Source of the DNA: Eretmocerus hayati
Lineage: Eukaryota > Arthropoda > Insecta > Hymenoptera > Aphelinidae
Assembly (NCBI GenBank): GCA_029851415.1
Contig: CM056743.1
Location: forward strand, 118,140,305-118,204,304
Length of the DNA: 64,000 nt
Direction of reading: 5' to 3'
Part shown: positions 6,133-51,324 of the stretch, piece after piece
Layout: every line of letters begins with the position of its first letter
How positions within the stretch are numbered: position 1 is the stretch's first letter
The notes under the pieces: model-generated
What the model saw: only the letters and a program-made list of their open reading frames with translations
What the model was told of the DNA's origin: nothing
Database searches by the model: none
Program-made: the position numbers and the translations under genes

Positions 6133-6657
6133 TACATTCCGAGAGAAATCGTCACAAGTACCCGTTCGTTAGTTCTTCCTTTCATAAAAAATCTGACACC
6201 GTCGATAAACAGAATTATTGAAAAGTATTCTCTCACCTCTATAAATTATAATGGAATTCAGCTCAACAATATGATCAGGTTGAGCAAAGATTCTCTAGAT
6301 AGATTTGACCATCACAAAATTGTTTACAAAATAGATTGTTCAGATTGTGAAAAAACATGTATAGGTACGAGTAAGCGTAAGCTGAGAAAGAGGATTCAAG
6401 AACATGAGCGAGACGTCGGGGATAATAAAGTCACATCAGCTCTTGCTAATCATGTGTCTAATATAAACCACAAAATAAATTTCAAACAAGCTCAAATATT
6501 AGAAGTAGAGAACAGATATAGATTAAGACTTTTCTCTGAAATGTTAAAGATTTACCATTACCCTAACACTCTCAATCGTATGAAAGACACATTTCGTTTA
6601 AAATCAGTAATAGAAGATTCAATTGACCATTTCAAAGCAGTTCAACTCAATCGATAA
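6133..6657 (+). pseudogene. Penelope-like element fragment: GIY-YIG endonuclease domain
   Basis: The frame is open from about 6133 to the TAA at 6655-6657. It encodes the end of a retroelement polyprotein: a segment LPFIKNLTPSINRIIEKY typical of the region just after the reverse transcriptase, then VYKIDCSDCEKTCIGTSKRK, which matches the VYKIxCxxCxxxYIGxTxRxL signature of GIY-YIG endonucleases in Penelope-like elements. A conserved arginine, an EH pair and ALANHV follow at the expected spacing. The GIY/YIG pair itself is degraded: the second motif reads CIG instead of YIG. No reverse transcriptase lies upstream, because a stop occurs at about 6130. This is therefore a truncated, probably inactive copy. 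The family assignment rests on motif recognition. Confidence 0.75.
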
Positions 6658-8040: not shown

Positions 8041-8936
8041 AGCTACGTACGTCAACCTGTACCGCGACCAAAATGTGACAATTGTTTTGGGTAGGACTCT
8101 AACTGTTCTAATTGTATAGAAAATTTCAGAATTTTCCTATTTTGCCTTTTCGAGAAAATCGACTTTTAAGTCGTCAAAATATGCCCGACTTCCTAGAGGC
8201 CACAGCTCTTCGAATATTGAGCCTAGATCAACGTACCTGGGCTCAAATTGAAGCTCTGAATTTGCCAAAATTGTTTTAGGTATTAAATCTTCAGAAAGAT
8301 TATTGCGAAGGATGATACCGTCGATTATAAGTTACACGTGGTCACAGTATACCTATATATATGGTGAGATGGCGGACGGGTGGCGCCAGAGCGCGGGAAG
8401 ACAAGTCTCGCGATAATCTCGATGCATGCATAGGTTTCTAGCACCCGCTTTACGTCTGCAAGGGGTTAGATCTGCTCTGCTGGCCTCGTAAAAGATCCCA
8501 ATATAGATATTCCCAGAGTTATCCCGTCAAACGTCGATCCGGGCGATCCCGGCCCGCAAAAGCGCTGTTGTCGTCTGCTCGAGATCAGTCGCCCCCTCCG
8601 CGCGCCGTATTGCCGTATATATAGGTATATTGTGACCACGTGTAACTTATAATCGACGTTATCATCCTTCGCGATGATCTTTCTGAAGATTTAATACCTA
8701 AAACAATTTTGGCAAATTCAGAGCTTCAATTTGAGCCCAGGTACGTTGATCTAGGCTCAATACTCAAAGAGCTGTGGCCTCTGGAAGTCGGGCATATTTT
8801 GACGACTTAAAAGTCGATTTTCTCGAAAAGGCAAAATAGGCAAATTCTGAAATTTTCTATACAATTAGAACAGTTAGAGTCCTGCCCAAAATAATTGTCA
8901 CATTTTGGTCGCGGTACAGGTTGACGTACGTATGAA
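8041..8936. mobile_element. Foldback element with ~325-bp inverted repeats
   Basis: Positions 8041-8362 are inverted at 8617-8936, with scattered mismatches. Outer ends read ACGTACGTCAACCTG and its complement; inner ends meet at TATACCTATATATA. The 254-bp loop (8363-8616) is GC-rich and carries no protein-coding frame. The element shows no transposase. Terminal duplications could not be fixed. Confidence 0.85.
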
Positions 8937-9410: not shown

Positions 9411-9611
9411 AGCATATCACTATCAAGTCACAAGTATAAAAGGCAGGGGGTCAATTCTAGATTTCGGTCTAGACCAGTCGCGCGGGTCTATTGACCAGAA
9501 TTTGTCGAGGTTGCGCGCGACCTGCGCGTTGATTCGCGATTCCATCGTTCCTCGCTCCGCGAACCTTGGGTTAGGTTAGCACGTATAGCTGCGTTTTGCG
9601 GTTTTGTGGTA

Positions 9612-9618
9612 TACTGTA
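9612..9618. other. Putative Tc1/mariner excision footprint
   Basis: The sequence TACTGTA sits where the right arm carries the 362-bp MITE bounded by TA. The MITE ends read CTG...CAG, so TA-CTG-TA is the footprint expected when such an element excises leaving three terminal bases. Flanks agree with the filled site except for one T. Confidence 0.5.
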
Positions 9619-9628
9619 GTAGTGGAGC

Positions 9629-9772
9629 TATGGCGGTCCGGGGCCACCGGGGGTATGGCGCTCCGAGGCCAATGGCGCTCCGGGGCCACTGGCGGTCCGG
9701 GGCCACCCGAGGCATGGCGCTCCGAGGCCAATGGCGCTCCGAGGCCTAATGGAGGCATGGCGCTACTGACAC
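9629..9772. repeat. GC-rich ~17-bp minisatellite (left arm)
   Basis: About seven imperfect units of the type TGGCGCTCCGGGGCCAA alternate with TGGCGGTCCGGGGCCAC. The same block is inverted at about 17934-18075. Reading frames across it are low-complexity Gly/Pro/Arg artefacts. Confidence 0.8.
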
Positions 9773-10063
9773 TGCTGATGAATTCCCCCCCCCCCCCCCC
9801 CCCCGGTCCTTTATGGCCCACTGGTCCTTTATTACCCAATTTTAATGCTGGCCTCATTCCTATGTATGCTTGTTCTGCCTCACCGAGGAGCCCCCCCCCC
9901 CCCCCTTATGGCACTCCTGGCCCACTGGTCCTTTGTTGTGCTCAATGTTTCAAGCATACCCGGTTTTAAATATCATTGTGTACAATTACGCGAGTGTAGT
10001 GCTAAATATCACCACTATCATTATGTATAATTACGCGAGTGTAGTGCTAAATATCACCACCAG

Positions 10064-10195
10064 ATGGCGTCTCGTGGCTCAAACATCGAAGAGAAGTGTG
10101 TACGCATCGATCCAAGTCGATACAGGCAAGTTTCGTATAGAATAGTTCCGGACGCCACCGCTAGGTGGCGACTGGTTTACCTCGTATGCAAATGA
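10064..10195 (+). CDS. Small ORF or first exon, 43 codons (left-arm copy)
   Basis: An ATG at 10064 opens a 43-codon frame rich in Arg, Tyr and Val (begins MASRGSNIEEKC, contains VRIDPSRYRQVSYRIV) and ends at TGA 10193-10195. Its composition is that of a real basic protein, unlike the AT-rich chance frames elsewhere. A possible donor at 10184 (CTC/GTATGC) would allow an in-phase join to the exon at 10396, giving a 96-aa product; this join is hypothetical. The ATG lies within a CTCF-like motif CCACCAGATGGCG, so the frame may be fortuitous. An identical copy is at 17514-17645 on the minus strand. Confidence 0.35.
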   Translation: MASRGSNIEEKCVRIDPSRYRQVSYRIVPDATARWRLVYLVCK

Positions 10196-10242
10196 GTTGC
10201 AACCTTCACCTTACATACTTGGGGATGATCTTTTCATCGGCA

Positions 10243-10524
10243 TCACTCTGGAAGTCCAGAAAAAAAAGGTGAGTGATTCCGAAAGGAATGACCCTCCGGA
10301 TTTAGATTTTCAGTGGCTGTGATTCCTTTCGGAATCACAGTTTGCGATTCTGAAAAGTATGGCACCCCCAGTGTAACCTCTTCTTTTTCTTTCAGATGGA
10401 TTACGAAACCGCTGTTCAGAATGGATTCCAACACGGATATGAAGAGGGTGGGGTTTGGCATCCCTACCCTGAATGCGATTATGTTAATTGCCCCTACTGT
10501 AGATATAATTATGTGAAATCCCAT
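10243..10524 (-). CDS. Unknown 93-aa protein (left-arm copy)
   Basis: This mirror copy of 17185-17466 has an identical predicted protein. The ATG at 10524 is 41 nt downstream of a TATAAAA box (10559-10565 on the minus strand). The N-terminal half is hydrophobic (about residues 3-40); the C-terminal half is polar. It overlaps on the opposite strand an alternative spliced frame (10396-10566), and the two cannot both be under ordinary coding selection. The promoter evidence favours this strand; the splice-signal evidence favours the other. Confidence 0.4.
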   Translation of the reverse strand: MGFHIIISTVGAINIIAFRVGMPNPTLFISVLESILNSGFVIHLKEKEEVTLGVPYFSESQTVIPKGITATENLNPEGHSFRNHSPFFSGLPE

Positions 10525-10566
10525 GTCTGGAGTGCTGCCGATGAGCCTGCGGCCTCTGTTTTATAG
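10396..10566 (+). CDS. Alternative 56-aa Cys-containing frame, 3' exon of a possible spliced gene (left-arm copy)
   Basis: The frame starts MDYETAVQNGFQHGY and includes ECDYVNCPYC, a possible zinc-binding cluster, ending at TAG 10564-10566. Immediately upstream is a near-ideal intron at 10270-10395: donor AAG/GTGAGT and a polypyrimidine tract ending TTTCTTTCAG. A preceding frame ending in QKKK joins in phase across it and is open back to about 10145, but has no ATG of its own. The stop codon overlaps the TATA box of the opposite-strand 93-aa gene. The function is unknown. Confidence 0.4.
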   Translation: MDYETAVQNGFQHGYEEGGVWHPYPECDYVNCPYCRYNYVKSHVWSAADEPAASVL

Positions 10567-10751
10567 AGCCAAGGCCCGAGCCGCCGACGCCGCAGCTCGA
10601 ACCTGATTGGCCGTTGCAAGTTCTGATAACTCAGCTCCGATTGGCTACTTCAGGTTTCAACATGAAAACTCTGCGCCGTAGCTCGAATCTGATTGACCGT
10701 TGCAAGTCCTGACATAATAACTCAGCTACTTCAGGTTTCAACATGAAAGCT
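10559..10751 (-). promoter_or_regulatory. TATA plus duplicated CCAAT modules (left-arm copy)
   Basis: This is the mirror of 16958-17150. It holds TATAAAA at 10559-10565 and two ~81-86-bp repeats with CCAAT-type cores upstream. Confidence 0.6.
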
Positions 10752-10856
10752 CTGATTGGCTAATGCAAGTTTCAACGAGTGAGATTGGTGGGGGCCCCAG
10801 CCACGCCCCACACCTGTGGAGTGCATCCAATTAATCACTCCTCCATAAGTGAATGC

Positions 10857-11027
10857 TCACAATAATCTTCGTGATGTTGGTATAGCTCGTGGTCGAGTTG
10901 GAATCCTGACCCATGGCTGCCTCTCAACATCCTCCCTGTATCTGATGATGGGTTTTGGAAGTCCTCTCGGGAAGATTGGCTCAGGCGTAAACTCCACAAT
11001 GGGCATTGATGGCATGCGATGATCCAT
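10857..11027 (-). CDS. Small Pro/Arg-rich ORF, 56 aa (left-arm copy)
   Basis: This is the mirror copy of 16682-16852. It begins 31 nt after the stop of the 163-aa gene in the same orientation. The product starts MDHRMPSMPIVEF and is rich in Pro and Arg. It was found by reading the sequence between the larger genes. It has no known domain. Confidence 0.4.
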   Translation of the reverse strand: MDHRMPSMPIVEFTPEPIFPRGLPKPIIRYREDVERQPWVRIPTRPRAIPTSRRLL

Positions 11028-11058
11028 GATCCTCAACGGTCGTCTAGTTTCTAATCCA

Positions 11059-11550
11059 TCAGTGGAATACTTTCCAATCGTCTGAAAATGTTATCCAATC
11101 ATATTCTTCCACGACTCTGATGTTCATTGACTCCATACGTGGATGGTCATTCTTGCTTATTCCACACTCATTCATCTTCTCTACACAAGCTTTCAGTTTG
11201 CATAGCAGTGGCGTCTCAGGTCGATTCACTTTCATGAGATAAAGATCTACGTCTGTGATCACAAGTTTTGAATGCTCTTTATAGTAATAATTGGTGTCAA
11301 AATTGTAGAAGAAACGATTCTCCACCCACAGATTTTCATCCACTATGTTGAAATCTATCCTGGCAGATTCGATGCATTCCTTGCACAACTCTCCGTTATG
11401 ATGGAAATTTATGCTGATTCCCATTTCACCCGGCAAGAATTTCCAATATTCAGTGATGGTATCATCCCTGCTGCACGGCAGTTTCAGCTTCCTCTTTGAC
11501 TGCCCATTCTCATCGAGGAAATGTATGCAAGTGTTGTAGTAGAGGCCCAT
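11059..11550 (-). CDS. Unknown 163-aa acidic Cys-containing protein (left-arm copy)
   Basis: Predicted protein identical to that of 16159-16650. The start chosen is the ATG at 11550 (MGLYYNTCIHFL) rather than a longer upstream frame, because the upstream part contains the TATA box (11585-11592, minus strand) and would lie before the expected start of transcription. The two copies in opposite arms point inward to outward and would be transcribed divergently from the centre. No family was recognised. Confidence 0.6.
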   Translation of the reverse strand: MGLYYNTCIHFLDENGQSKRKLKLPCSRDDTITEYWKFLPGEMGISINFHHNGELCKECIESARIDFNIVDENLWVENRFFYNFDTNYYYKEHSKLVITDVDLYLMKVNRPETPLLCKLKACVEKMNECGISKNDHPRMESMNIRVVEEYDWITFSDDWKVFH

Positions 11551-11584
11551 GGTGGTGCAATGGCAAATGACACATTGGCTGGGC

Positions 11585-11592
11585 CTTTTATA
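11585..11592 (-). promoter_or_regulatory. TATA box of the left 163-aa gene
   Basis: TATAAAAG on the minus strand, 42 nt from the ATG at 11550. Mirror of 16117-16124. Confidence 0.6.
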
Positions 11593-11728
11593 TGCTTCCG
11601 CGCACCGATTTATTGCCACGCATGCTCAAAAGTGCCAGGATGGTGTATGACTGTGAATCATTCAGTTCTGGCATAACTCCTTGCATCTCGGCATCCAGAC
11701 CCTGGCAACGTAACTGAGACGCCATCAT
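11588..11728 (-). CDS. Small ORF, 46 aa (left-arm copy)
   Basis: This is the mirror of 15981-16121. Its stop codon lies inside the TATA box of the following 163-aa gene. The product begins MMASQLRCQGLDAEMQ. Confidence 0.3.
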   Translation of the reverse strand: MMASQLRCQGLDAEMQGVMPELNDSQSYTILALLSMRGNKSVRGSI

Positions 11729-11735
11729 CAGTCCA

Positions 11736-12600
11736 CGTCTATCCCGCGCGGTATTCGTGCGGTATACGTCTATCCCGCGCGGTATTCGTGCGGTATACGT
11801 CTATCCCGCGCGGTATACGTCTATCCCGCGCGGTATACGTCTATCCCGCGCGGTATTCGTGCGGTATACGTCTATCCCGCGCGGTATTCGTGCGGTATAC
11901 GTCTATCCCGCGCGGTATTCGTACGGTATACGTCTATCCCGCGCGGTATTCGTGCGGTATACGTCTATCCCGCGCGGTATTCGTACGGTATACGTCTATC
12001 CCGCGCGGTATTCGTGCGGTATACGTCTATCCCGCGCGGTATTCGTACGGTATACGTCTATCCCGCGCGGTATTCGTGCGGTATACGTCTATCCCGCGCG
12101 GTATTCGTGCGGTATACGTCTATCCCGCGCGGTATTCGTGCGGTATACGTCTATCCCGCGCGGTATTCGTGCGGTATACGTCTATCCCGCGCGGTATTCG
12201 TACGGTATACGTCTATCCCGCGCGGTATTCGTGCGGTATACGTCTATCCCGCGCGGTATACGTCTATCCCGCGCGGTATTCGTACGGTATACGTCTATCC
12301 CGCGCGGTATTCGTGCGGTATACGTCTATCCCGCGCGGTATTCGTACGGTATACGTCTATCCCGCGCGGTATTCGTACGGTATACGTCTATCCCGCGCGG
12401 TATTCGTACGGTATACGTCTATCCCGCGCGGTATTCGTGCGGTATACGTCTATCCCGCGCGGTATTCGTACGGTATACGTCTATCCCGCGCGGTATTCGT
12501 GCGGTATACGTCTATCCCGCGCGGTATTCGTGCGGTATACGTCTATCCCGCGCGGTATTCGTGCGGTATACGTCTATCCCGCGCGGTATTCGTGCGGTCT
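11736..12600. repeat. 31-bp tandem array, left (about 28 units)
   Basis: Units read GTCTATCCCGCGCGGTAT, then TCGTGCGGTATAC or TCGTACGGTATAC; a few are shortened to 20 bp. Each unit contains CGCGCG and the palindrome GTATAC. Because 31 is not a multiple of three and the unit lacks stops on the plus strand, three long overlapping frames (up to 599 codons) run through it. I regard these as artefacts of the array except for the downstream gene at 12726. Unit-variant order matches the right array; the right array has five more units (155 bp) at the inner end. Confidence 0.95.
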
Positions 12601-12665
12601 CATGTCCGGTCTTCGTGCTGTATAAAAACTCTTTTTCAGACTCTCTGCGTGGTCCGCGCTCTGGC

Positions 12666-12673
12666 TATAAAAT
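12666..12673 (+). promoter_or_regulatory. TATA box of the central DUF8207-like gene
   Basis: TATAAAAT, 60 nt upstream of the ATG at 12726 and just inside the left-arm boundary, so that it belongs to the unique centre. Confidence 0.6.
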
Positions 12674-12725
12674 GGGCACTTCTCACAGGGCATCCCAGTC
12701 CGGAACTTTGCATCAAACTGTAGAC

Positions 12726-13556
12726 ATGGAGGACTTTCTCAATCAAAGAGATACATTAGTCAAGCTCATGAGAGCTAGAAAGGCTCTGAAACGCAAGTAT
12801 GCGTTGGTAAAACGACAACAAGCTGAGTTTGAAAAGAACATGAGAGACACATTCAAACCTATCACAGATCCGCTAGAGAAAATTCTAGCCTACCAAGAGA
12901 CAACCCAAAAGAGGGAATCAGGCGAAACCGTTAGAGAATCACCTAAAATCGATGAGACCATGATGAATGACACCATTTCAGACGAGAGTCAATCGGCTAC
13001 CTCATTCGAAACAGCTGACGATGAAGTCAGCGAGCCTGAGGACTACTTGGCAAGCCTTAGAAGAGACGATATGAATCTGGATAAATTGTACGGAGTCAGA
13101 AAAAATGGTAACTTCCTGGGAATCGGTAAATCACGAGTACAACTTATGAACGACCACATCTTAGTTGATAATCAGCGATTCCCAAACACCACTGGTCTAC
13201 TAGAGTTGATCTTCAAAAGAGTTCCAAATGAGAAAGTGATAACTGAAGAAGACATTGTGAATTACCAGAAAATTTTGAACGTATCACATGTTCATCGAAA
13301 GAGATTTCTTCATGATGGTGAACTCCGCAGAAGCAAGAGTCGAAAATTCAAGAACATCATCGAACCGCTATTTGGTCCGAGAAAAATTGGTGGATCACTC
13401 GCAAGTAGGACTACGGAGATATACTGGGATAACCCTAACCAATTAGTTAGAAAACTTCAGATTCTAATGAATGATAGAGGTGCTGGGAATCAAGATCATG
13501 ATGATGAGATAAGAGCTATCTTGGAATCCTTACACATGGCTGGTTATATCTATTGA
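12726..13556 (+). CDS. Coiled-coil protein resembling DUF8207 family
   Basis: 276 aa from ATG 12726 to TGA 13554-13556. Residues about 1-60 form a charged helical or coiled-coil segment ending FKPITDPLEKIL. An acidic Ser/Thr-rich linker follows, then a globular C-terminal part beginning LDKLYGVRKNGNFLGIG and containing TTGLLELIFKRVP, TEEDIVNYQKIL and a basic RRSKSRKFKNIIEPL stretch. This order (helical segment with TFKP-I-PL, then YGV, a short IG strand, G-LELIF, basic tail) matches my memory of arthropod DUF8207 proteins, which occur in multicopy elements of unknown function. The open frame extends upstream through the 31-bp array, but the TATA box at 12666 and a clean ATG favour the shorter start. 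The function is unknown; the basic tail suggests nucleic-acid binding. Confidence 0.7.
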   Translation: MEDFLNQRDTLVKLMRARKALKRKYALVKRQQAEFEKNMRDTFKPITDPLEKILAYQETTQKRESGETVRESPKIDETMMNDTISDESQSATSFETADDEVSEPEDYLASLRRDDMNLDKLYGVRKNGNFLGIGKSRVQLMNDHILVDNQRFPNTTGLLELIFKRVPNEKVITEEDIVNYQKILNVSHVHRKRFLHDGELRRSKSRKFKNIIEPLFGPRKIGGSLASRTTEIYWDNPNQLVRKLQILMNDRGAGNQDHDDEIRAILESLHMAGYIY

Positions 13557-13582
13557 CCCTCGAGTTCGTGAAAGAGACTGAC

Positions 13583-13590
13583 TATAAATA
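13583..13590 (+). promoter_or_regulatory. TATA box of the FLYWCH gene
   Basis: TATAAATA, 27 nt after the stop of the preceding gene and 60 nt before the ATG at 13643. The spacing equals that of the neighbouring central gene. Confidence 0.6.
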
Positions 13591-13642
13591 CAGACGATAA
13601 TGATGACAGAGACACTATTCCTTGAACATCAAACCAGTCAAC

Positions 13643-14902
13643 ATGGGTGAAAATTTTGAGGAAGCCTTGGAGCGAGCTGCTATGGCAGTAAAGAAGAAAC
13701 TGGAGCTCCTGCGTGAGCAGTCTTCACACGGAGGGAACCTAGAGACAGATCAAGAGTTGCAGAGAAATCAGGACGGTTCTCGAAGAGAAAACTTGGAGGT
13801 GTACGGATCAAATACATCAGAAGAAACTGCTCCTCCTAGTTCATTGAATGGGTCGATGAAATTTATCAGAAACCGTCTTGGTAAGGAACAACTCGTTGTA
13901 GATGGCAAACATTTTATCCGAGAGAAAACCAATCGTAACGGTACAGTGCGGTGGAAGTGCGTCGATTACTATAAAACCAATCGGTGCCCGAGTACAGCAC
14001 TTACTCATGGAATGAATTTAGTCAGTATTAGTAATCCTCACAATCATCCCGTGGCTCCTTCGATGCAGCCTTGTATCAGAAGTCATCCATCCTTGGATGA
14101 AAACCATGGTGATCTGGGAGATAATGACAGAGAGCGGACAAATCATAGTGATTCAGTGAAACAGAGAGCAATTCAGGGTAACATTATTATTCCTCCAACC
14201 AGTAAGCAGAATTCTATTCCAAACAAGGAAACTAGTGGGGAACCAACATTCAGCAGTCCCCGGTTTCATGCACGGAGTGACAGTTCGAGAGCTCCAGAAG
14301 CTGATTTTGAGTCTGGATCATGTCACAGAGAGAGATCTGTTGATTCGGGATCATCTGATTCATATCACAGCAATGCATCATTTGGTTCAAATTCATACCA
14401 CAGCAGTCGATCATTCGATCCGGATATTGACTCAGGATCATGTGATAGCAATGCATCATTTGAGTCAAACTCACATCTGTCATCCTACTCAGATATCGAC
14501 TCAGAATCAAGTAACAGTAATCCGTACAATACTGTTCACAATGCTTCTACTCAGGAACTGGTAGAACAGTCTTACGATAATGGAGGACTGGACTTTGACA
14601 GATGCTCGACGAATGATTATGAAAGGGGGAGATCTGCAAGACTTGGATTGCCTCCTCCTACATTATTGGGATTCCCATTGCCTCAGGCAGATGCGTGGGA
14701 AACTTCGCACTACAATGATCGCTCGGATGAGAGAGATGAGAGGCCTAGGGAATCATGGGATGAAGTTGCCCGTCGAACATTCGGACGATTGGGACTGCCA
14801 TCGTACGAGACCTTACCCAGAACGATCAAGTATGTGCGAGGAATCAAGAAGAGGGCTTACGCCGGAAAATACTATTGGTCCAAATATGATTCTGGGAGAT
14901 GA
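13643..14902 (+). CDS. FLYWCH-type zinc-finger protein
   Basis: 419 aa from ATG 13643. Residues 1-26 are a charged helix. A FLYWCH zinc finger spans about 74-135: F74, RLGKEQLVVDGKHF, WKC with Cys106, Cys115, and the NPHNHP end with His133 and His135, which gives the expected C2H2 set. Residues about 200-300 are Ser/Asp-rich with imperfect repeats of the type GSCDSNASFESNSH. The C-terminus holds two LGLP segments and a basic, Tyr-rich tail (IKKRAYAGKYYWSKY). FLYWCH fingers bind DNA or proteins and occur in insect chromatin proteins and beside MULE transposases. No transposase domain follows here. The gene ends 46 nt before the right-arm boundary and has its own TATA box. A role in binding the element's own DNA is an inference. 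Confidence 0.8.
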   Translation: MGENFEEALERAAMAVKKKLELLREQSSHGGNLETDQELQRNQDGSRRENLEVYGSNTSEETAPPSSLNGSMKFIRNRLGKEQLVVDGKHFIREKTNRNGTVRWKCVDYYKTNRCPSTALTHGMNLVSISNPHNHPVAPSMQPCIRSHPSLDENHGDLGDNDRERTNHSDSVKQRAIQGNIIIPPTSKQNSIPNKETSGEPTFSSPRFHARSDSSRAPEADFESGSCHRERSVDSGSSDSYHSNASFGSNSYHSSRSFDPDIDSGSCDSNASFESNSHLSSYSDIDSESSNSNPYNTVHNASTQELVEQSYDNGGLDFDRCSTNDYERGRSARLGLPPPTLLGFPLPQADAWETSHYNDRSDERDERPRESWDEVARRTFGRLGLPSYETLPRTIKYVRGIKKRAYAGKYYWSKYDSGR

Positions 14903-14953
14903 TTCAGAGCCTGGATATGAGCTAAGAAGAGCCCGGTGCCGCAAGACCACATG

Positions 14954-15973
14954 AGACCGCACGAATACCGCGCGGGATAGACGTATACCGTACGAATACC
15001 GCGCGGGATAGACGTATACCGTACGAATACCGCGCGGGATAGACGTATACCGTACGAATACCGCGCGGGATAGACGTATACCGCACGAATACCGCGCGGG
15101 ATAGACGTATACCGCACGAATACCGCGCGGGATAGACGTATACCGCACGAATACCGCGCGGGATAGACGTATACCGCACGAATACCGCGCGGGATAGACG
15201 TATACCGCACGAATACCGCGCGGGATAGACGTATACCGTACGAATACCGCGCGGGATAGACGTATACCGCACGAATACCGCGCGGGATAGACGTATACCG
15301 TACGAATACCGCGCGGGATAGACGTATACCGTACGAATACCGCGCGGGATAGACGTATACCGTACGAATACCGCGCGGGATAGACGTATACCGCACGAAT
15401 ACCGCGCGGGATAGACGTATACCGTACGAATACCGCGCGGGATAGACGTATACCGCGCGGGATAGACGTATACCGCACGAATACCGCGCGGGATAGACGT
15501 ATACCGTACGAATACCGCGCGGGATAGACGTATACCGCACGAATACCGCGCGGGATAGACGTATACCGCACGAATACCGCGCGGGATAGACGTATACCGC
15601 ACGAATACCGCGCGGGATAGACGTATACCGCACGAATACCGCGCGGGATAGACGTATACCGTACGAATACCGCGCGGGATAGACGTATACCGCACGAATA
15701 CCGCGCGGGATAGACGTATACCGTACGAATACCGCGCGGGATAGACGTATACCGCACGAATACCGCGCGGGATAGACGTATACCGTACGAATACCGCGCG
15801 GGATAGACGTATACCGCACGAATACCGCGCGGGATAGACGTATACCGCACGAATACCGCGCGGGATAGACGTATACCGCGCGGGATAGACGTATACCGCG
15901 CGGGATAGACGTATACCGCACGAATACCGCGCGGGATAGACGTATACCGCACGAATACCGCGCGGGATAGACG
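14954..15973. repeat. 31-bp tandem array, right (about 33 units)
   Basis: Same unit as the left array in inverted orientation. The long minus-strand frames of 257-379 codons are array translations continuing into unrelated sequence at the inner boundary and are not credited as genes. Confidence 0.95.
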
Positions 15974-15980
15974 TGGACTG

Positions 15981-16121
15981 ATGATGGCGTCTCAGTTACG
16001 TTGCCAGGGTCTGGATGCCGAGATGCAAGGAGTTATGCCAGAACTGAATGATTCACAGTCATACACCATCCTGGCACTTTTGAGCATGCGTGGCAATAAA
16101 TCGGTGCGCGGAAGCATATAA
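15981..16121 (+). CDS. Small ORF, 46 aa (right-arm copy)
   Basis: Tandem ATGs at 15981 and 15984 open a frame starting MMASQLRCQGLDAEMQ and ending at TAA 16119-16121, inside the TATAAAAG box of the next gene. The amino-acid mix is balanced, and the frame begins only 8 nt after the 31-bp array. No TATA box precedes it; if transcribed, the array itself would be its upstream region. It may be a short protein or chance. Confidence 0.3.
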   Translation: MMASQLRCQGLDAEMQGVMPELNDSQSYTILALLSMRGNKSVRGSI

Positions 16122-16124
16122 AAG
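16117..16124 (+). promoter_or_regulatory. TATA box of the right 163-aa gene
   Basis: TATAAAAG, 42 nt before the ATG at 16159. An expected initiator region, about 30 nt on, would leave a leader of only 10-15 nt. Confidence 0.6.
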
Positions 16125-16158
16125 GCCCAGCCAATGTGTCATTTGCCATTGCACCACC

Positions 16159-16650
16159 ATGGGCCTCTACTACAACACTTGCATACATTTCCTCGATGAG
16201 AATGGGCAGTCAAAGAGGAAGCTGAAACTGCCGTGCAGCAGGGATGATACCATCACTGAATATTGGAAATTCTTGCCGGGTGAAATGGGAATCAGCATAA
16301 ATTTCCATCATAACGGAGAGTTGTGCAAGGAATGCATCGAATCTGCCAGGATAGATTTCAACATAGTGGATGAAAATCTGTGGGTGGAGAATCGTTTCTT
16401 CTACAATTTTGACACCAATTATTACTATAAAGAGCATTCAAAACTTGTGATCACAGACGTAGATCTTTATCTCATGAAAGTGAATCGACCTGAGACGCCA
16501 CTGCTATGCAAACTGAAAGCTTGTGTAGAGAAGATGAATGAGTGTGGAATAAGCAAGAATGACCATCCACGTATGGAGTCAATGAACATCAGAGTCGTGG
16601 AAGAATATGATTGGATAACATTTTCAGACGATTGGAAAGTATTCCACTGA
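16159..16650 (+). CDS. Unknown 163-aa acidic Cys-containing protein (right-arm copy)
   Basis: Starts MGLYYNTCIHFLDENGQ and ends FSDDWKVFH. The protein has scattered Cys and His (CIH, CSRDD, CKECIES, LLCKLKACVEKMNECG) that could bind metal, aromatic-rich mid and C-terminal parts, and neither a signal peptide nor a transmembrane segment. Downstream, 31 nt after the stop, a small Pro/Arg-rich frame follows in the same orientation. An identical protein is encoded in the left arm at 11059-11550. I do not recognise the family. The intact frame in both arms, its balanced codon use and its TATA box argue that it is a true gene of the element. Confidence 0.65.
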   Translation: MGLYYNTCIHFLDENGQSKRKLKLPCSRDDTITEYWKFLPGEMGISINFHHNGELCKECIESARIDFNIVDENLWVENRFFYNFDTNYYYKEHSKLVITDVDLYLMKVNRPETPLLCKLKACVEKMNECGISKNDHPRMESMNIRVVEEYDWITFSDDWKVFH

Positions 16651-16681
16651 TGGATTAGAAACTAGACGACCGTTGAGGATC

Positions 16682-16852
16682 ATGGATCATCGCATGCCAT
16701 CAATGCCCATTGTGGAGTTTACGCCTGAGCCAATCTTCCCGAGAGGACTTCCAAAACCCATCATCAGATACAGGGAGGATGTTGAGAGGCAGCCATGGGT
16801 CAGGATTCCAACTCGACCACGAGCTATACCAACATCACGAAGATTATTGTGA
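16682..16852 (+). CDS. Small Pro/Arg-rich ORF, 56 aa (right-arm copy)
   Basis: ATG 16682 to TGA 16850-16852, begins MDHRMPSMPIVEF and continues with PRGLPKPIIRYREDVE. It is basic and proline-rich. It lies 31 nt past the stop of the 163-aa gene, in another frame, so it would need re-initiation or its own transcript; no TATA box was seen between them. Confidence 0.4.
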   Translation: MDHRMPSMPIVEFTPEPIFPRGLPKPIIRYREDVERQPWVRIPTRPRAIPTSRRLL

Positions 16853-16957
16853 GCATTCACTTATGGAGGAGTGATTAATTGGATGCACTCCACAGGTGTG
16901 GGGCGTGGCTGGGGCCCCCACCAATCTCACTCGTTGAAACTTGCATTAGCCAATCAG

Positions 16958-17150
16958 AGCTTTCATGTTGAAACCTGAAGTAGCTGAGTTATTATGTCAG
17001 GACTTGCAACGGTCAATCAGATTCGAGCTACGGCGCAGAGTTTTCATGTTGAAACCTGAAGTAGCCAATCGGAGCTGAGTTATCAGAACTTGCAACGGCC
17101 AATCAGGTTCGAGCTGCGGCGTCGGCGGCTCGGGCCTTGGCTCTATAAAA
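16958..17150 (+). promoter_or_regulatory. Promoter with duplicated CCAAT modules and TATA box
   Basis: Two ~81-86-bp direct repeats each contain TTTCATGTTGAAACCTGAAG and CTTGCAACGG followed by CAATCAG. CCAAT-type cores occur as GCCAATCAGAG (16950), GGTCAATCAG (17011), GCCAATCGGAG (17064) and GGCCAATCAGG (17097). A TATAAAA box at 17144-17150 follows, and an ATG lies at 17185. This is a textbook polymerase II promoter layout, and the tandem duplication resembles compact viral promoters. Mirrored at 10559-10751. Confidence 0.65.
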
Positions 17151-17313
17151 CAGAGGCCGCAGGCTCATCGGCAGCACTCCAGACATGGGATTTCACATAA
17201 TTATATCTACAGTAGGGGCAATTAACATAATCGCATTCAGGGTAGGGATGCCAAACCCCACCCTCTTCATATCCGTGTTGGAATCCATTCTGAACAGCGG
17301 TTTCGTAATCCAT
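17143..17313 (-). CDS. Alternative 56-aa Cys-containing frame (right-arm copy)
   Basis: Mirror of 10396-10566: frame MDYETAVQNGF...CPYC, preceded on the minus strand by the same AAG/GTGAGT...TTTCAG intron signals. Overlaps the plus-strand 93-aa frame. Confidence 0.4.
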   Translation of the reverse strand: MDYETAVQNGFQHGYEEGGVWHPYPECDYVNCPYCRYNYVKSHVWSAADEPAASVL

Positions 17314-17466
17314 CTGAAAGAAAAAGAAGAGGTTACACTGGGGGTGCCATACTTTTCAGAATCGCAAACTGTGATTCCGAAAGGAATCACAGCCACTGAA
17401 AATCTAAATCCGGAGGGTCATTCCTTTCGGAATCACTCACCTTTTTTTTCTGGACTTCCAGAGTGA
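17185..17466 (+). CDS. Unknown 93-aa protein (right-arm copy)
   Basis: ATG 17185 lies 41 nt after TATAAAA and downstream of the duplicated CCAAT promoter. The product begins MGFHIIISTVGAINIIAF. The first 40 residues are hydrophobic enough for a membrane segment; the remainder is polar, with KEKEE. The frame ends at TGA 17464-17466. It is antisense to the alternative spliced frame with a CPYC motif, so one of the two is probably only a shadow. An identical protein is encoded at 10243-10524. Confidence 0.4.
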   Translation: MGFHIIISTVGAINIIAFRVGMPNPTLFISVLESILNSGFVIHLKEKEEVTLGVPYFSESQTVIPKGITATENLNPEGHSFRNHSPFFSGLPE

Positions 17467-17513
17467 TGCCGATGAAAAGATCATCCCCAAGTATGTAAGG
17501 TGAAGGTTGCAAC

Positions 17514-17645
17514 TCATTTGCATACGAGGTAAACCAGTCGCCACCTAGCGGTGGCGTCCGGAACTATTCTATACGAAACTTGCCTGTATCGACTTGGATC
17601 GATGCGTACACACTTCTCTTCGATGTTTGAGCCACGAGACGCCAT
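17514..17645 (-). CDS. Small ORF or first exon, 43 codons (right-arm copy)
   Basis: Mirror of 10064-10195; see that entry for composition and possible splicing. Confidence 0.35.
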   Translation of the reverse strand: MASRGSNIEEKCVRIDPSRYRQVSYRIVPDATARWRLVYLVCK

Positions 17646-18081
17646 CTGGTGGTGATATTTAGCACTACACTCGCGTAATTATACATAATGATAGTGGTGA
17701 TATTTAGCACTACACTCGCGTAATTGTACACAATGATATTTAAAACCGGGTATGCTTGAAACATTGAGCACAACAAAGGACCAGTGGGCCAGGAGTGCCA
17801 TAAGGGGGGGGGGGCTCCTCGGTGAGGCAGAACAAGCATACATAGGAATGAGGCCAGCATTAAAATTGGGTAATAAAGGACCAGTGGGCCATAAAGGACC
17901 GGGGGGGGGGGGAATTCATCAGCAGTGTCAGTAGCGCCATGCCTCCATTAGGCCTCGGAGCGCCATTGGCCTCGGAGCGCCATGCCTCGGGTGGCCCCGG
18001 ACCGCCAGTGGCCCCGGAGCGCCATTGGCCTCGGAGCGCCATACCCCCGGTGGCCCCGGACCGCCATAGCTCCACTACTTA

Positions 18082-18443
18082 CTGTATACGTGATTGTTAT
18101 CAAACAAACATAAATGAATGTTTATTTGACAATCATGACCATGCTGTTATCCGGTGTGAGGTTTAAAAGTGTTGATGAAATATCTCCATCAGTGAGAGTT
18201 TCATCTCTTTTTGATCAAATATGATTGACTGTCGTGATACTGTATGTGACAGTGGAGCTCGCAAAAAAATGTTTCATTTTTACAGCATCACGACAGTCAA
18301 TCATATTTGATCAAAAAGAGATGAAACTCTCACTGATGGATATATTTCATCAACACTTTTCAACCTCACGCCGGATAACAGCATGGTCATGATTGCCAAA
18401 TAAACATTCATTTATGTTTATTTGATAACAATCACGTATACAG
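18082..18443. mobile_element. Palindromic Tc1/mariner-type MITE inside the right arm
   Basis: 362 bp with near-perfect inverted arms of ~150 bp beginning CTGTATACGTGATTGTTATC, directly flanked by TA on both sides (18080-18081 and 18444-18445). It has no coding capacity. The left arm lacks it and shows TACTGTA at the matching place. Confidence 0.85.
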
Positions 18444-18614
18444 TATACCACCAAAACTGCAGAACGCAGCTATACGAGCTAACCTAACCCAAGGTTCGCG
18501 GAGCGAGGAAGGATGGAATCGCGAATCAACGCGCAGGTCGCTCGCTACCTTGACAAATCCTGGTCACTAGACCCGCGCGACTGGTCTAGACCGAAATCTA
18601 AAATCGACCCCCAG

Positions 18615-23781: not shown

Positions 23782-24203
23782 ATGTCGGGATTGCTGTACA
23801 CGCTACTGGGCCTGGCGGCCAGCTCGAGTCTGCACTGCGCGGTGCGTCGCGAGATAAGCCCGTGCACCTGTCGCCAGGAAGACTTTTCGACCCCGATAGT
23901 GTCTGGTCCCGCGCCCATCTCTGCTCCTGGAGATAGCGGTCCTGGGGGTGGTGGTGGGAGTTTGGGGGGTAGTGGGATCGGCGTGGGCATACCGCCCCCG
24001 CCACATGGAGAGCGCATCGAGGTCGAGTGCGAGCGCATGGAGTCGTTTCAACAGCTGGCCGAGGCTCTCAGGGGCAAGTTCACCCCCGAGCAGCAAATAA
24101 CGCTCAGGGTGTCACACTCGCAGCTCAAGGACATATCTAAGCACGGGCTCAAGGAGCTGCGCATGTCAATCACCAAGCTCGAGCTCAACTACGACAGTCT
24201 TGG
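23782..24203 (+). CDS. LRR gene, coding exon 1: signal peptide, LRRNT cap, first repeats
   Basis: ATG 23782 starts MSGLLYTLLGLAASSSLHC, a hydrophobic signal peptide. An LRRNT cysteine cap follows: Cys19, Cys28, Cys30 (PCTC) and Cys83 (VEC). Between Cys30 and Cys83 is an unusual ~50-residue Gly/Pro-rich insertion including PGGGGGS and GIPPPP. The first LRRs are LRVSHSQL and LELNYDSL. The exon ends in phase 2 at donor TTGG/GTGAGT. It is the most GC-rich coding segment of the window. The whole product is an extracellular LRR protein of adhesion or receptor type (chaoptin-, artichoke- or ALS-like in general architecture); I cannot name the orthologue. Confidence 0.85.
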
Positions 24204-24635
24204 GTGAGTCGCGCTCTCAATTTTATGTTGAGCTTGTATTTGTCGCATGATGCGAGCGAATGATGATTGCCAATATATTCTTTGGAAAAATTGTCAGATC
24301 AGTTGCATTGTGCAAAACAAGGTGTATTGCATCAAGTACAAATTGTGTTTCGGCACCCAAGTCTTGCAGGACTTGCTTCGCTGCAAACTGTCTTGGCATT
24401 TGCATTCACTTTACCGTGCTCATATCACAATGTAATGTACCATTCCACGAGTCTTACTCACACGGGACGAACGAACGGCTAATTCTGAATATATTATAAT
24501 AAATCCTTTGCCAGCGAGTTAGACTGCATCCATTTTGAAAAAAAGGAAATTCAGAGATAATAAATTTGTAAATTCGAGAAAAGCTCTAAAGATCTTCATG
24601 ATCTCGTTCACTGAGTTCTTCTATTTTACTGCATC

Positions 24636-33020: not shown

Positions 33021-34984
33021 GTACAAATAATTTCCTCGTGATTTGATGTCTGTAGAAAATGAGTCTCACGTTTTGATGCTCCAATCTTGTCCCGAAATTG
33101 TATCAAAATGCATTGCAATTCATGGATTATGAAACGTAAGATCTGAATCCTGATCTTCGAAATTGGAATCTGGATTTTATGTGCGTTATGCGCGAATTGA
33201 TCAGAGATTCGATGCCAAGATACCAAGTAATCTGAGATATTTCCAATATTCTCATCAGATAGGATAGTTTCGTTTACTTGGAAAGTTTATGCATAAATTA
33301 TATTCATCTAATTAAAATTCGATTGTAATGACTGTCAGCAGTCTCAAATGAATTTTTTGTAGAATGAAATCGATCAGGTTCAATGTTTTCTACGTCGATA
33401 AAATCATTTCAACGGATGAGCAGTAAAGTATGTGAGAAATGCCGGAAAAATTTTCCTCGAGGGTCCAAGAGATCATTCTTCCAATTTTTATCTTACAAGG
33501 AGAGCCCAAGGGGTTCGGGAGCTGGATCTGGCTGAAACTCTGGGAATTGTCTCCTTTTGGCACCAAAAGATGATACCCAAAGCCGCAGAGTCTAACGCTC
33601 AAGCGTTTCCGAGCTACAGGCTACAACCCATGCATTACAGTATATCTATATACCAAGTGACAAACATAAGTTGGCGGATTTTTTTTGCTTCCGATTTTGG
33701 TTTGAGAAATGTTGGAAATCGTTTGAAATCCGTGTGGCAAGCACATTTCTAACGTGAAAATTCCTTGCAAAGCGATTGGCGTGGTCAAAATTACGACATC
33801 TCTTTTCATTGCGGAATTGTGAATGAATTTTCACAAGCATGTTTTTGCTATCTCGGCGAATATCGATCGGAGCGAAATTTCAAGCACACCATCAGAAAGA
33901 TCGCGAAATTTTGAGTCGGAAATGGTTGTTTCCGACTCTGATATTTGCATTATTTCATGTAATTTGATTAACGAAACAATTGATGTGGGTTTTGTAACGC
34001 TTTCTGTAACGCTTGTAACGCCAGTGTTGACATTTCGTGTTTCTGCGCGTCTGCTGGTTTGCTGCTAGTGTGCCACGTGGGTGCAATGTGCGAGTTCATT
34101 TTAAATGACCAGGAACGAATAGGGGCAGTGAATTCGAGTATAGTACATAAGTAATCTCTGCCGTGCGATTGATTGTTATTAAGTGATACACGGTCATTTA
34201 AAACTATAGGTAAGCCCGGAAAGGGGCTGGAGATCTTGCTCGCCCGGTCCCAATCAATTAGGATTGGGGCCCTGGTCATCTTGAGAACCAAATTTGGATG
34301 CCGTATGTGTCGAAGATTGCTCGTCGCATTTACGAATTGCAATCGAGCAAAAAAGCAGCCTGAGACGCGAGACGCGAGATGCTATGGGTACTTGATGGAG
34401 GTTATGGTTTGCGTGTATCTTCCGTTCGTGGCTGCTGAATTTTCTTATTCAATTCTGAATCGTAGATAACGTAATCTCTTCCTCGAGATGCATTTTTTGT
34501 TGGCAATCAACGCGTCACTAACTATAGGGACCCTAGCTGGCACATGTCACGACATTGGACACAGCTATTGCGGGTCTCGCGGGCTATACATGTAGCAGCA
34601 CAGTGGATCACAATGCAGCATATCCAAGCATATCCAGCTTAAATTCCAGGATATTCGGATGCTGTTGGTGTATTCCCCACTGCCACCTAAGAATTGTTGA
34701 ATGCGGGGTTTGGTGCGCAGAGAGAGAACAAGAGCACAAGCTCCGAGATAGTTTTTTTGTGATCAAGTGTCTTATTGAGTTCAGCATCTCAACAGTTTTA
34801 ATCAATTGATCAGAAAACAGTGAACCTCAAACTTTGATCTGTGATTCAATTTGATTGTGCAGTTATGCATCACATTATGACGTGAAAAACTGAATTCACC
34901 TTGCTCACATCTATAGCTCCTCTTAGTGTATCAAAAAAGGTAGCCCTCAAGTGATGGTGTAGTTAATCATTCTGCACATAATTT

Positions 34985-35948
34985 AAAGAGTCCTGTAACG
35001 GTTATCGGCGATCTGGACACTCGTCGATAACTGTTACAGGACCACATCGACACTAGCCAGGGACCGATACAGGACCAGATCGACACACGCCGATGACTGT
35101 TCCGGGACCACATCGACGCTCGCGGAGGACCGGAAGAGGACCGATACTGGACCAGATCGACACTCTCCGAGGACCGATACGGGACCAGATCGACACTCGC
35201 CGATGCTCGCCGAGCACCGATACGGGACCAAATTGACCCTCGCCGATAACTGTGACGGGACCAAATTGACACTCACCGATGACTGCTACGGGACCACATC
35301 GATATTCGCCGAGGACCGGTACAGGACCGTTACGGGACCAAATGGACACTCGCTGATAACTGTTACAGGACCACATCGACACTCGCCGAGGACCGATACA
35401 GGACCAGATCGTCACTCGCCGAGCACCGATACGGAACTAAATTGACACTCGCCGATGACCGTAACGGGACCACGTCGACACTCACTGAGGATCGATACAG
35501 GACCGATACGAGACATCGACACTCGCCGATTGCTATTATACTGGACCACATCGACACTCGCCGGGGATCGGTGCAGGACCGATACTGAACCAAATGGACA
35601 CTCGCCGATAACTGTTACGGGACCAAATCGACACTCGCCGAGGACCGGTACAGGACCGATACGGGGCCAGATCGACACCCGCCGGTCACCGATACGGGAC
35701 CAGATCGACACTCGCCGAGGACCGGTACAGGACCGATACGGGGCCAGATCGACACCCGCCGGTCACCGATACGGGACCAGATCGACACTCGCCGAGGACC
35801 GGTACAGGACCGATACGGAACTAAATGAACATTCGCCGATAACTGTTACAGGACCACATCAACACTCGCCGAGGACCGATACAGGTCCAGATCGACGACA
35901 CTCGCTGATGACCGTAACAGGACCAGATCGTCACTCGCCGAGCACCGA
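34985..35948. repeat. 33-bp minisatellite in foldback loop
   Basis: About 27 units built from GACCGATACGGGACCA and GATCGACACTCGCCGAG, with some units carrying an extra GGACCGGTACA insert. As 33 is divisible by three, frames remain open on both strands and give repeating Asp-Arg-His-Ser-Pro or Val-Ser-Ile-Trp-Ser peptides. These are not genes. Confidence 0.9.
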
Positions 35949-36452
35949 TCGATTATCTGCCAGTTACAAATAAATCTCATTGCGGTCGATATTGTTGTGA
36001 GAATATCATACTCCTCGAAATGAGCAACCTGCATTTAATTTGAATCGCATTATACTGTTTATCAGTATTAGTTGTTTCAGACTGCTATGTCGAATAGAGT
36101 TTGATTACTCGTTCAAACTCCATGTTTCGAAATAGAAGAATTTTGATTCTGAGCTTTTCACTATGAACTCCGTCTGTGATTCTTCAAGTAGAATTCCGTA
36201 CTTTGCCACTTCCCAAATACTATAGAGTGTGACCCAGGCTGGATGGGTGGATACTTCTCGATTGAAACCCTCCAATACGCACCCGTGGACTGCAATCTCA
36301 AAAATATAATCCATTACGGTCGTAGTACTCCAAATGTAACATATTTGGTGAGATCTGTCGATCTAAACCGATTATGATTCATGAACACTGGTAAATATCT
36401 TCACCAACACCGAGAAATAAAAGCTCCCGGTCGACATTTTGAGAAAAAAGCA

Positions 36453-36717
36453 TGGACTTATACTATTCTGGCCCCCAGAATTTTTCAACTTTTCAACGCA
36501 AAAAACGGTTCAAGTCCACAGTATTTCGACGTTTTTTAAAGCAAAAGGGTTCAAATCGACAATTTTTTAATATTTCACGATCTGAAAGTCGACTAGTTTC
36601 TTTACTTTCCCCGATCCAGAACGGTATAATTCCACTTCAAAAAAAATGATGGACTTATACCGTTCCGGTCCGGAAAATAAATCGAAGAAATTCGGGGACC
36701 AGAACGGTATAAGTCCA
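36453..36717. mobile_element. Small MITE with TGGACTTATAC ends
   Basis: 265 bp. Left end TGGACTTATACTATTCTGGC; the right end is its complement with a few changes. The motif recurs inverted at about 36613 and 36650. It is nested in the foldback loop. Confidence 0.7.
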
Positions 36718-37859
36718 TTCTTTATTGCAAAACACCTAATATAGAATGTAAATGGCCCGCGAGACCCACAACAGCTGTGTCCAATGTCGTGACATGTGCC
36801 AGCTAGGGTCCCTATAGTTAGTGACGCGTTAATTGACAACAAAAAATGCATCTCGAGGAAGAGATTACGTTATCCACGATTCAGAATTGAATAAGAAAAT
36901 TCAGCAGCCACGAACGGAAGATACACGCAAACCATAACCTCCATCAAGTACCCATAGCGTCTCGCGTCTCGCGTCTCAGGCTGCTTTTTTGCTCGATTGC
37001 AATTCGTAAATGCGACGAGCAATCTTCGACACATACGGCATCCAAATTTGGTTCTCAAGATGACCAGGGCCCCAATCCTAATTGATTGGGACCGGGCGAG
37101 CAAGATCTCCAGCCCCTTTCCGGGCTTACCTATAGTTTTAAATGACCGTGTATCACTTAATAACAATCAATCGCACGGCAGAGATTACTTATGTACTATA
37201 CTCGAATTCACTGCCCCTATTCGTTCCTGGTCATTTAAAATGAACTCGCACATTGCACCCACGTGGCACACTAGCAGCAAACCAGCAGACGCGCAGAAAC
37301 ACGAAATGTCAACACTGGCGTTACAAGCGTTACAGAAAGTGTTACAAAACCCACATCAATTGTTTCGTTAATCAAATTACATGAAATAATGCAAATATCA
37401 GAGTCGGAAACAACCATTTCCAACTCAAAATTTCGCGATTCTTCTGATGGTGTGCTTGGAATTTTGCTCCGATCGATATTCGCCGAGATAGCAAAAACAT
37501 GCTTGTGGAAGTTCATTCACAATTCCGCAACGAAAAGAGATGTCGTAATTTTGACCACGCCAATCGCTTCACAAGGAATTTTCACGTTAGAAATGTGCTT
37601 GCCGCGCGGATTTCGTAAGATTTCCAACATTTATCAAACCAAAATCGGAAGTCAAAAAAATCCGCCAACTTATGTTTGTCACTTGGTATAATGGTATATA
37701 TAGATATACTGTAATGCATGGGTTGTAGCCTGTAGCTCGGAAACGCTTGAGCGTTAGACTCTGCGGCTTTGGGTATCATCTTTTGGTGCCAAAAAGAGAG
37801 GATTCCCAGAGTTTCAGCCAGATCCAGCTTCCGAACCCCTTGGACTCCCCTTGTTAGAA

Positions 37860-45633: not shown

Positions 45634-46242
45634 GTAAATCTCATTCATTAAAATACTGAATACATGTCTTAGGCAGAACAAATCAATACTCAAATGAACT
45701 TCTGATTCTCAAAACGCGTGACAAGTATCAAATTGAGGTCACAGAAATACAACTATCGGATCATCTACTTACATGTTGTCGAATTTATAACAGCAAAACC
45801 GTCGCGAATGAAGTTTAAGTTTTAGATTCATTCATTATGGGCTCTGCAAAGGACTGCGTATGCAATCCAGTTCGAATTTCATATTTGAGGTATTTTATAA
45901 TCTAATCAGTGCAGATCCTTGCGTCAATCTGATACGAGCCGTTAGATTTTGAACATTTAATTGATCTATTTTATGTTCTATAGTACTGAGATAAATTCAT
46001 CTATAGTCGCTGTTGTGAATGTAGGACTTGAAATTTCTTCAACTGTATATACTCACAAAATTTCCGACTGATTCACTTTTATAATATTTCTATCGTAGAA
46101 AATGACGAATTGATCTAAAATCAAGTAATGAGGACCCGAAGTAAATACGTCGATTAATCAAGATCAGTTCATGTTCAGACCGAGTGCTATCAGCCTCAAC
46201 TAGCTCGGCTATCTGCAAACCTAGATTTGCTCACTTTTTCAG

Positions 46243-46504
46243 AGATTTGAATCAACTTGAGTGGCTGCTGATCAATGCGAACGAGCTCACCTCTTTGGAT
46301 GGTGAGTTGCCGTCGTCGGGCCACAATCTAAAAGTTTTATACGCAGCGGACAACAAGCTGACTCATCTACCGGCTGAGTTTCGCTATCTTCACCGTCTGG
46401 ACTCGTTATATTTGCAACACAACAAAATATGCAACCTGAACGGCGCCCTCCAGAAAGCTCGAAGGCTGAAACTTTTAGAGCTTTCGTATAACAACTTGCA
46501 AGTT
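46243..46504 (+). CDS. LRR gene, coding exon 4
   Basis: Acceptor CACTTTTTCAG; the first base completes an Arg codon with exon 3. Encodes DLNQLEWLLINANELTSL, LKVLYAADNKLTHLPAEF, LDSLYLQHNKICNLNG and LKLLELSYNNLQV: four LRRs. Ends at GTT/GTGAGT in phase 0. An upstream ATG in frame (46184) is not used because it lies in the intron. Confidence 0.85.
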
Positions 46505-51085: not shown

Positions 51086-51324
51086 GATTGAACTCTGAGG
51101 GTGAGGTACCGTACTAATTTGATTTTCACCAAGTTGAGGAATAGCAGCTTTTTATTCAAAAACTGCGTTTCTTCAATTAAATTAAACCATATTGACTTCG
51201 ATTTACGAGCATTTGTGTTTGAAATTGTTTGAATGGTTCCAATTTCTCATCAGACCAAGAAAGATTAAAAAAAATTGACGACTTCCTTCATCATACATTG
51301 TTAGAGCGAATCCTACGATTACAG

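Follow-up and report, generated by a model that had tools for sequence, protein, structure and literature searches.

Virophages, P4 and the phage-inducible chromosomal islands (PICI) are small elements without replication or integration enzymes that use those of a larger element, and non-autonomous partners are common for cut-and-paste transposons. FB/NOF and Galileo are foldback elements with long inverted repeats and internal tandem repeats. The DNA studied here is a stretch of 64,000 nucleotides of Eretmocerus hayati (Hymenoptera, Aphelinidae; GenBank assembly GCA_029851415.1, contig CM056743.1, positions 118,140,305 to 118,204,304 of the forward strand), referred to below as the window, which contains a palindromic gene-bearing element at positions 9618 to 18079. 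The closest described systems are covered by three sources. Vertebrate Mavericks carry (AGT)2//(ACT)2 ends and a 6 bp target site duplication (TSD), and a jumping-back step is expected for Mavericks (PMC8097293); according to a preprint, the polinton polymerase contains the terminal protein (PMC11071308); and Tm1 is a Mutator/Foldback element with a TSD of about 9 bp and a FLYWCH domain in its Tm1-A transposase (PMC3169594). No non-autonomous Maverick/Polinton satellite, no paper on a Polinton with FLYWCH and no paper on DUF8207 were found in the open-licence PubMed Central literature (for the satellite, subscription papers and Repbase were outside the scope).

The element is very probably a non-autonomous, gene-bearing satellite of Maverick/Polinton elements and probably their parasite, for which Maverick enzymes would provide replication and insertion in trans. 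Its principal parts are given below in window coordinates; TATA-like boxes were recognised by eye.

9618 to 18079, no strand: whole element, 8462 bp, 5′-AGTAGT...ACTACT-3′, with ends common to 18 copies including that of the window
9612 to 9617: left target site duplication, TACTGT, from comparison of the flanks and alignment of a miniature inverted-repeat transposable element (MITE)
18080 to 18085: right target site duplication, TACTGT, on the same basis
9618 to 12598, plus strand: left arm (long terminal inverted repeat)
15111 to 18079, minus strand: right arm (long terminal inverted repeat)
10513 to 11052, plus strand: arm stretch 98.1 % identical (540 columns) to the terminal inverted repeat (TIR) of the full-length Maverick copy L040
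11059 to 11550, minus strand: arm gene, 163 aa, left copy, homologue of a Maverick TIR gene; coordinates by symmetry
16159 to 16650, plus strand: arm gene, 163 aa, right copy, with a TATA-like box about 40 bp upstream
12672 to 13556, plus strand: DUF8207-like gene, 294 aa, with TATA-like boxes upstream; its Maverick homologue adjoins the integrase gene
13643 to 14902, plus strand: FLYWCH zinc-finger gene, 419 aa (PF04500, E 1.3e-13, read from 13622), with a TATA-like box upstream

The 6 bp TSD, the (AGT)2//(ACT)2 ends and the terminal inverted repeats are those of Maverick/Polinton elements, and the element shares with a Maverick of the same genome (a mosaic with a split polymerase) the TIR DNA in the outer part of its arms, the DUF8207-like gene and, in some copies, the TIR gene. 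Unlike an autonomous Maverick, the element has no recognised gene for polymerase B, retroviral-type integrase, ATPase, protease or capsid. It also differs in its FLYWCH gene, which was not seen beside Maverick-type DUF8207 genes, and in a tandem array motif that gave 0 matches in three Maverick pieces.

The larger relative was read at locus L038, a Maverick with an integrase (rve, E 7e-17), an A32/FtsK-type ATPase (E 5e-8), a phospholipase A2-like protein (E 4e-10) and polymerase pieces. Its DUF8207-like gene, of the class with about 40 % identity, is placed between the ATPase and integrase genes. Putative protease and capsid genes of L038 were assigned by reading of the open reading frames (ORFs), of which those tested had no significant Pfam match. 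The neighbouring stretches L040 and L039 hold a 1564 bp TIR with ends AGTAGT/ACTACT and the duplication AGAGTA, spanning 16,208 bp by coordinates; this was the one Maverick examined for a TSD, and the TSD was 6 bp (1/1). Positions 421–2162 of L039 form a mosaic Maverick end, in which capsid-like and integrase stretch pieces are repeated at 100 % identity.

The copy set for comparison consisted of the window and 20 stretches of 10 kb (21 A-type copies). The Maverick TIR is covered from position 1 to 1520 of 1564 in at least one arm of L009, L010, L012, L024, L025 and L028 and from 9 to 1520 in L026, at about 91–98 % identity for all seven copies, L026 included; in the other 14 copies, the best-matching arm spans between 218 and 1259 TIR positions. 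In every copy (21/21), at least one arm has a match that stops at position 1520. A nearly unaltered Maverick TIR gene of 154 aa is found in L010, L011 and L015; in L010 it has a 163-aa gene beside it.

The DUF8207-like protein has at least 135 matching places in the genome (133 of 876 candidates scored); these are matches rather than copies, several being pieces of one broken copy. Among the 83 matches with at least 56 % identity, FLYWCH was found within 3 kb in 78 and an integrase within 10 kb in none; widening to 20 kb gave one, L017, which stands beside a separate Maverick-type integrase. None of the 52 matches below 56 % identity had FLYWCH, and 46 had an integrase within 3 kb (130 integrase matches scored of 3991 candidates). 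Maverick genes are abundant in the genome (944 polymerase and 3991 integrase first-look candidates), and many of those scored have open frames.

A Pfam scan of the four larger element proteins with sequence profiles gave FLYWCH only, with no transposase, integrase, polymerase, ATPase, protease or capsid domain. In the FLYWCH protein no MULE domain was called by Pfam, and a protein database search gave no relative; the 163-aa arm protein had neither a Pfam match nor a protein database relative. The DUF8207-like protein has two distant protein database relatives (33 % and 28 % identity), both tagged PF26634, which we take to be DUF8207 by name. DUF8207 was called by Pfam in none of the scanned proteins, and the label rests on the PF26634 tag of these two hits. 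In viral contigs 119 pattern matches to DUF8207 were obtained and none was confirmed as a relative, a PHROGs search gave nothing significant, and the structure prediction had a mean predicted local distance difference test score (pLDDT) of 53.

An earlier note on this DNA, made from the letters alone, had seen no transposase, integrase or polymerase and proposed a virus-like or satellite element; it asked for a larger relative encoding a polymerase or integrase. The absence of these enzymes is borne out by the Pfam scan, and the larger relative is present in the same genome, with common ends, TIR DNA, TIR gene and DUF8207-like gene. The kind of element was rightly named; its supposed standing as a separate, undescribed entity was not upheld, the element being a derivative of the Maverick/Polinton superfamily by its ends, TIR DNA and DUF8207-like gene.

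Arm DNA of the element has at least 74 matching places in the 692 Mb, 17-contig assembly, many of them inverted pairs (40 of 262 candidates scored). All 6 bases of the TSD are equal in 18 of 18 A-type copies having both ends (21 examined); L014, L020 and L024, with one end outside the fetched piece, were left out of this count. As a control, 21 wrong pairings of end-like sites gave 0–3 equal bases of 6. The 18 two-ended copies are 5326–9064 bp long. Reading frames that span 95 % or more of the window protein are present for DUF8207 in 18 of the 21 copies (that of L024 is cut by the locus end), for FLYWCH in 17 (that of L012 is interrupted by a stop) and for at least one arm gene in all 21.

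The FLYWCH protein has at least 103 matching places (100 of 127 candidates scored), which include 20 at 95–100 % identity (A), two at 65 % (A′, in L014 and L024) and 24 near full-length at 42–46 % (B); the remaining matches have about 33–86 % identity, many being broken or in pieces. In the B copy that was read (L037), DUF8207 and FLYWCH lie between inverted arrays and inverted arms, so that centre, gene order and inverted arrays are kept despite a FLYWCH identity of 43–44 %. Its arm gene differs (264 aa, no significant Pfam match). The ends are AGTAGT/ACTACT, 10,148 bp apart by coordinates, with the 6 bp duplication CCAAAC (TSD 1/1). Two unusual arrangements were recorded among the copies. 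L024 (C1:8929001-8939000) has A and A′ arms in tandem and in the same orientation, its A′ array being built from the 11 bp unit GCGGTCTTCGT; and two B-type cores of the same orientation lie 2.6 kb apart at C2:94412162 and C2:94414747, possibly as a dimer form.

Selection was assessed by the Nei–Gojobori method with one pair per comparison and no test statistic. Between the window and L014, the 163-aa arm gene shows 10 synonymous changes and 1 nonsynonymous change; the synonymous (dS) and nonsynonymous (dN) rates are 0.06 and 0.03 for DUF8207, which is about 95 % alike between A and A′, and 0.41 and 0.21 for FLYWCH. Between the window and the B copy, where values are near saturation, the proportions of synonymous (pS) and nonsynonymous (pN) differences are 0.71 and 0.19 for DUF8207 and 0.71 and 0.42 for FLYWCH. 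Synonymous change per site exceeds nonsynonymous change in all five window comparisons (L014 and B copy), and the best reading is that the retained genes would be under purifying selection.

The inner edges of the arms are formed by tandem arrays with a 31 bp unit, which were absent from the earlier note.

11735 to 12598, plus strand: tandem array, 31 bp unit, 54 matches to CGGT[AC]T[AT]CG, all directed inward
14956 to 15974, minus strand: mirror tandem array, 64 matches to CGGT[AC]T[AT]CG, all directed inward

These arrays bracket both the DUF8207 and the FLYWCH genes. An 11 bp motif around CGGT[AC]T[AT]CG is common to the A, A′ and B arrays, all in one orientation, with 54 and 64 matches in the window, 64 in A′ (L024) and 18 and 16 in B; the rest of the window has 2, and mononucleotide-shuffled sequence gives a mean of fewer than 0.1. 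Most matches are spaced 11 or 20–22 bp apart, in B also 31 bp and more. The array unit differs among A, A′ and B, as does FLYWCH (65 % and 43–44 % identity). Two parts of the FLYWCH protein, its first 20 residues and a C-terminal RLGLPSY stretch, hardly vary among the three types. We infer that the FLYWCH protein may bind the array; a spacing of about one helical turn would fit cooperative binding on one face of the DNA. Protein and array would then be a putative small DNA-recognition pair.

If the element is a Maverick satellite, the protein-primed polymerase of a Maverick would replicate it in trans, starting at the (AGT)2 ends and using their repeated motif for the jumping-back step, and the Maverick integrase would insert it in trans. 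During strand-displacement replication the two ends of one molecule could pair and template each other, which would give near-identical arms. The DUF8207-like gene would be kept because its product must work in cis, on the DNA of the element itself, or be self-supplied, as is suggested by a family of at least two lineages that is without recognised Maverick enzymes yet keeps this gene. Since the terminal protein sits inside the polinton polymerase according to the preprint (PMC11071308), DUF8207 need not be the terminal protein. By binding to the phased 11 bp arrays, the FLYWCH protein may mark an iteron-like control or replication site.

Several observations weigh against the satellite reading. 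The Maverick that was read closely is itself a mosaic with a split polymerase. Among the matches listed, the 73 polymerase places are all more than 20 kb away from each of the 135 DUF8207 matches, and no Maverick combining DUF8207, these ends and an intact polymerase was found. The window copy matches only 757 of the 1564 Maverick TIR positions, and the B-type copy that was read has no DNA match to the 1564 bp TIR. Homogenisation of the arms within one molecule has weak support. Arms were compared over a 934-base reference stretch; after exclusion of matches below 850 bases, 36 arms and 15 pairs remained. The two arms of one copy differ at 0–4 positions in 14 of the 15 pairs, and the median between copies is 7 (0–27); the fifteenth pair, with 27 differences, is that of L024, where the arms have the same orientation and form no palindrome. 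In six of the 14 palindromic copies (window, L010, L011, L012, L014 and L015) both arms are strictly closest to each other, with 0 against 10 differences for the window. Another copy is as close in L016, L017, L018 and L021; in L009, L013, L019 and L020, one arm or both have a closer match in another copy. The comparison thus speaks weakly for homogenisation, which is clear for the window and a few others only; many copies are simply young.

Three copies bear both on this weighing and on an explanation of the family as passive deletion relics, that is, Mavericks that have lost their centre and are occasionally spread in trans with leftover genes of no use to the element. L013 and L027, without FLYWCH and with only partial DUF8207, and L019, without FLYWCH, keep the ends and perfect 6 bp TSDs. 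The genes are therefore either not strictly needed in cis, in which case other copies could supply the two proteins to L013 and L027, or were lost after insertion. Against relics stand the frames of at least 95 % kept in 18 (DUF8207) and 17 (FLYWCH) of 21 copies, and the synonymous excess seen in each of the five window comparisons (near saturation for B, and given without a test statistic). The B copy, moreover, keeps its centre, gene order and inverted arrays at 43–44 % FLYWCH identity, and FLYWCH adjoins 0 of the 52 Maverick-type DUF8207 genes, so that the relic explanation is unlikely. A small independent DNA virus with long inverted terminal repeats, with convergent ends or with repeats that a Maverick later acquired, would account for the compact genes with TATA-like boxes and for the genes within repeats. 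It is very improbable all the same: the TIR DNA of seven copies is about 91–98 % identical to that of a Maverick in the same genome, which refutes convergence, the DUF8207 homologue adjoins the integrase in Mavericks, and no DUF8207 relative was confirmed in viral contigs.

The 31 bp arrays and the FLYWCH domain had prompted the idea of a Foldback/Mutator (Phantom-type) transposon like Tm1, in which FLYWCH would be part of a MULE transposase. The present element does resemble Tm1 (PMC3169594) in its FLYWCH domain and in its long inverted repeats, which are composite and contain tandem units. The TSD is 6 bp in 18 of 18 copies and not about 9 bp, however, the FLYWCH protein has no MULE domain, and the present element differs further by its coding arms; its ends and arms match a Maverick. 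A Foldback/Mutator origin was rejected on the size of the TSD and the shared Maverick TIR, and its probability is close to nil.

The satellite reading can be carried further, to a long-lived lineage parasitising endogenous polintoviruses, which would have retained DUF8207 from its helper and acquired a FLYWCH protein that reads the helically phased 11 bp arrays. As one module, these would steer replication or packaging by the helper towards the satellite, and the lineage would be the animal equivalent of virophages and phage satellites. This extension is tentative and rather doubtful. The element resembles virophages and P4/PICI in its working, being small and probably using enzymes of a larger related element, but differs from them in that packaging or helper interference is not in evidence. 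Were it packaged, the element would count as the satellite of an endogenous virus of animals and would bear on the question of whether Mavericks make particles.

The boundaries of the element differ from those in the earlier note, which had placed the palindrome at 9444 to 18614; the outer parts, listed here, are an unrelated MITE.

9444 to 9617: left piece of a 703 bp host MITE, outside the element
18080 to 18614: right piece of the 703 bp host MITE, outside the element; the second copy of the TSD forms its first 6 bp

When joined, the flanks of the element form a 703 bp palindrome (91 % over 710 columns) with ends GGGGGTC...GACCCCC. At least 83 matches to this palindromic MITE were found at 40 places, the window and 39 elsewhere (40 of 149 candidates scored; every copy matches on both strands). 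Two MITE copies without the insert continue through the junction, with alignment identities of 97.7 % (1 gap position) and 97.4 % (2 gap positions). In the outer part of about 165 bp that the earlier note had included, the arms are only about 94 % alike (manual count from the alignment), and this part had no match in the 20 other loci searched (E up to 1e-8). Because the outer 170 bp or so belong to the MITE and the element was inserted in it, the palindrome had appeared longer than it is. Excision of a hairpin from the left arm was also considered and was rejected; the hairpin of the right arm and the outer 165 bp are one MITE, with the element inside.

Within these limits the other structural claims held. 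Inverted arms of over 3 kb, near-identical and with the same gene set, had been described; the same ORFs are present in both arms, which are 99.5 % identical over 2991 columns (9609–12598 and 15111–18089). Complementarity is 100 % over 2704 nt (9895–12598 and 15111–17814), and from 9618 to about 9915 of the arm alignment the two sides differ solely in the length of poly-C runs. The arms account for about 70 % of the element. The centre with two further genes is present and has a size of about 2.5 kb. Collapse of the arms as an assembly artefact, which the earlier note had named as a refutation, is ruled out: the arm DNA is multicopy, with many inverted pairs at different sites and with different 6 bp duplications.

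Minor features of the arms are as follows.

9630 to 9764: G+C-rich minisatellite near the left tip
17933 to 18067: minisatellite near the right tip, the same as that near the left tip
10396 to 10566, plus strand: small arm ORF, 56 aa with CDYVNCPYC, tentative, after a possible 3′ splice site (by eye)
17143 to 17313, minus strand: mirror of the 56-aa CDYVNCPYC ORF; coordinates by arm symmetry
16682 to 16852, plus strand: small ORF downstream of the arm gene, 56 aa, tentative (by eye); also in L016

The Maverick TIR too has a minisatellite near its tip, but of different sequence. The CDYVNCPYC ORF is overlapped by a 93-aa ORF on the opposite strand and is of full length solely in the window among the 21 copies (two full copies there).

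Elsewhere in the window, a second palindrome (33488–37861) has 1.1 kb arms of 96 % identity around a tandem-repeat centre with 33, 44 and 77 bp units, with no clear TSD at the edges of the blast match. An inverted repeat of about 360 bp (93 %) lies at 8044–8932. By eye, the ORFs 23782–24207, 46184–46552, 51229–51618 and 53955–54389 resemble exons of a leucine-rich-repeat cell-surface protein, and ORF 6271–6657 resembles the GIY-YIG endonuclease domain of a retroelement.

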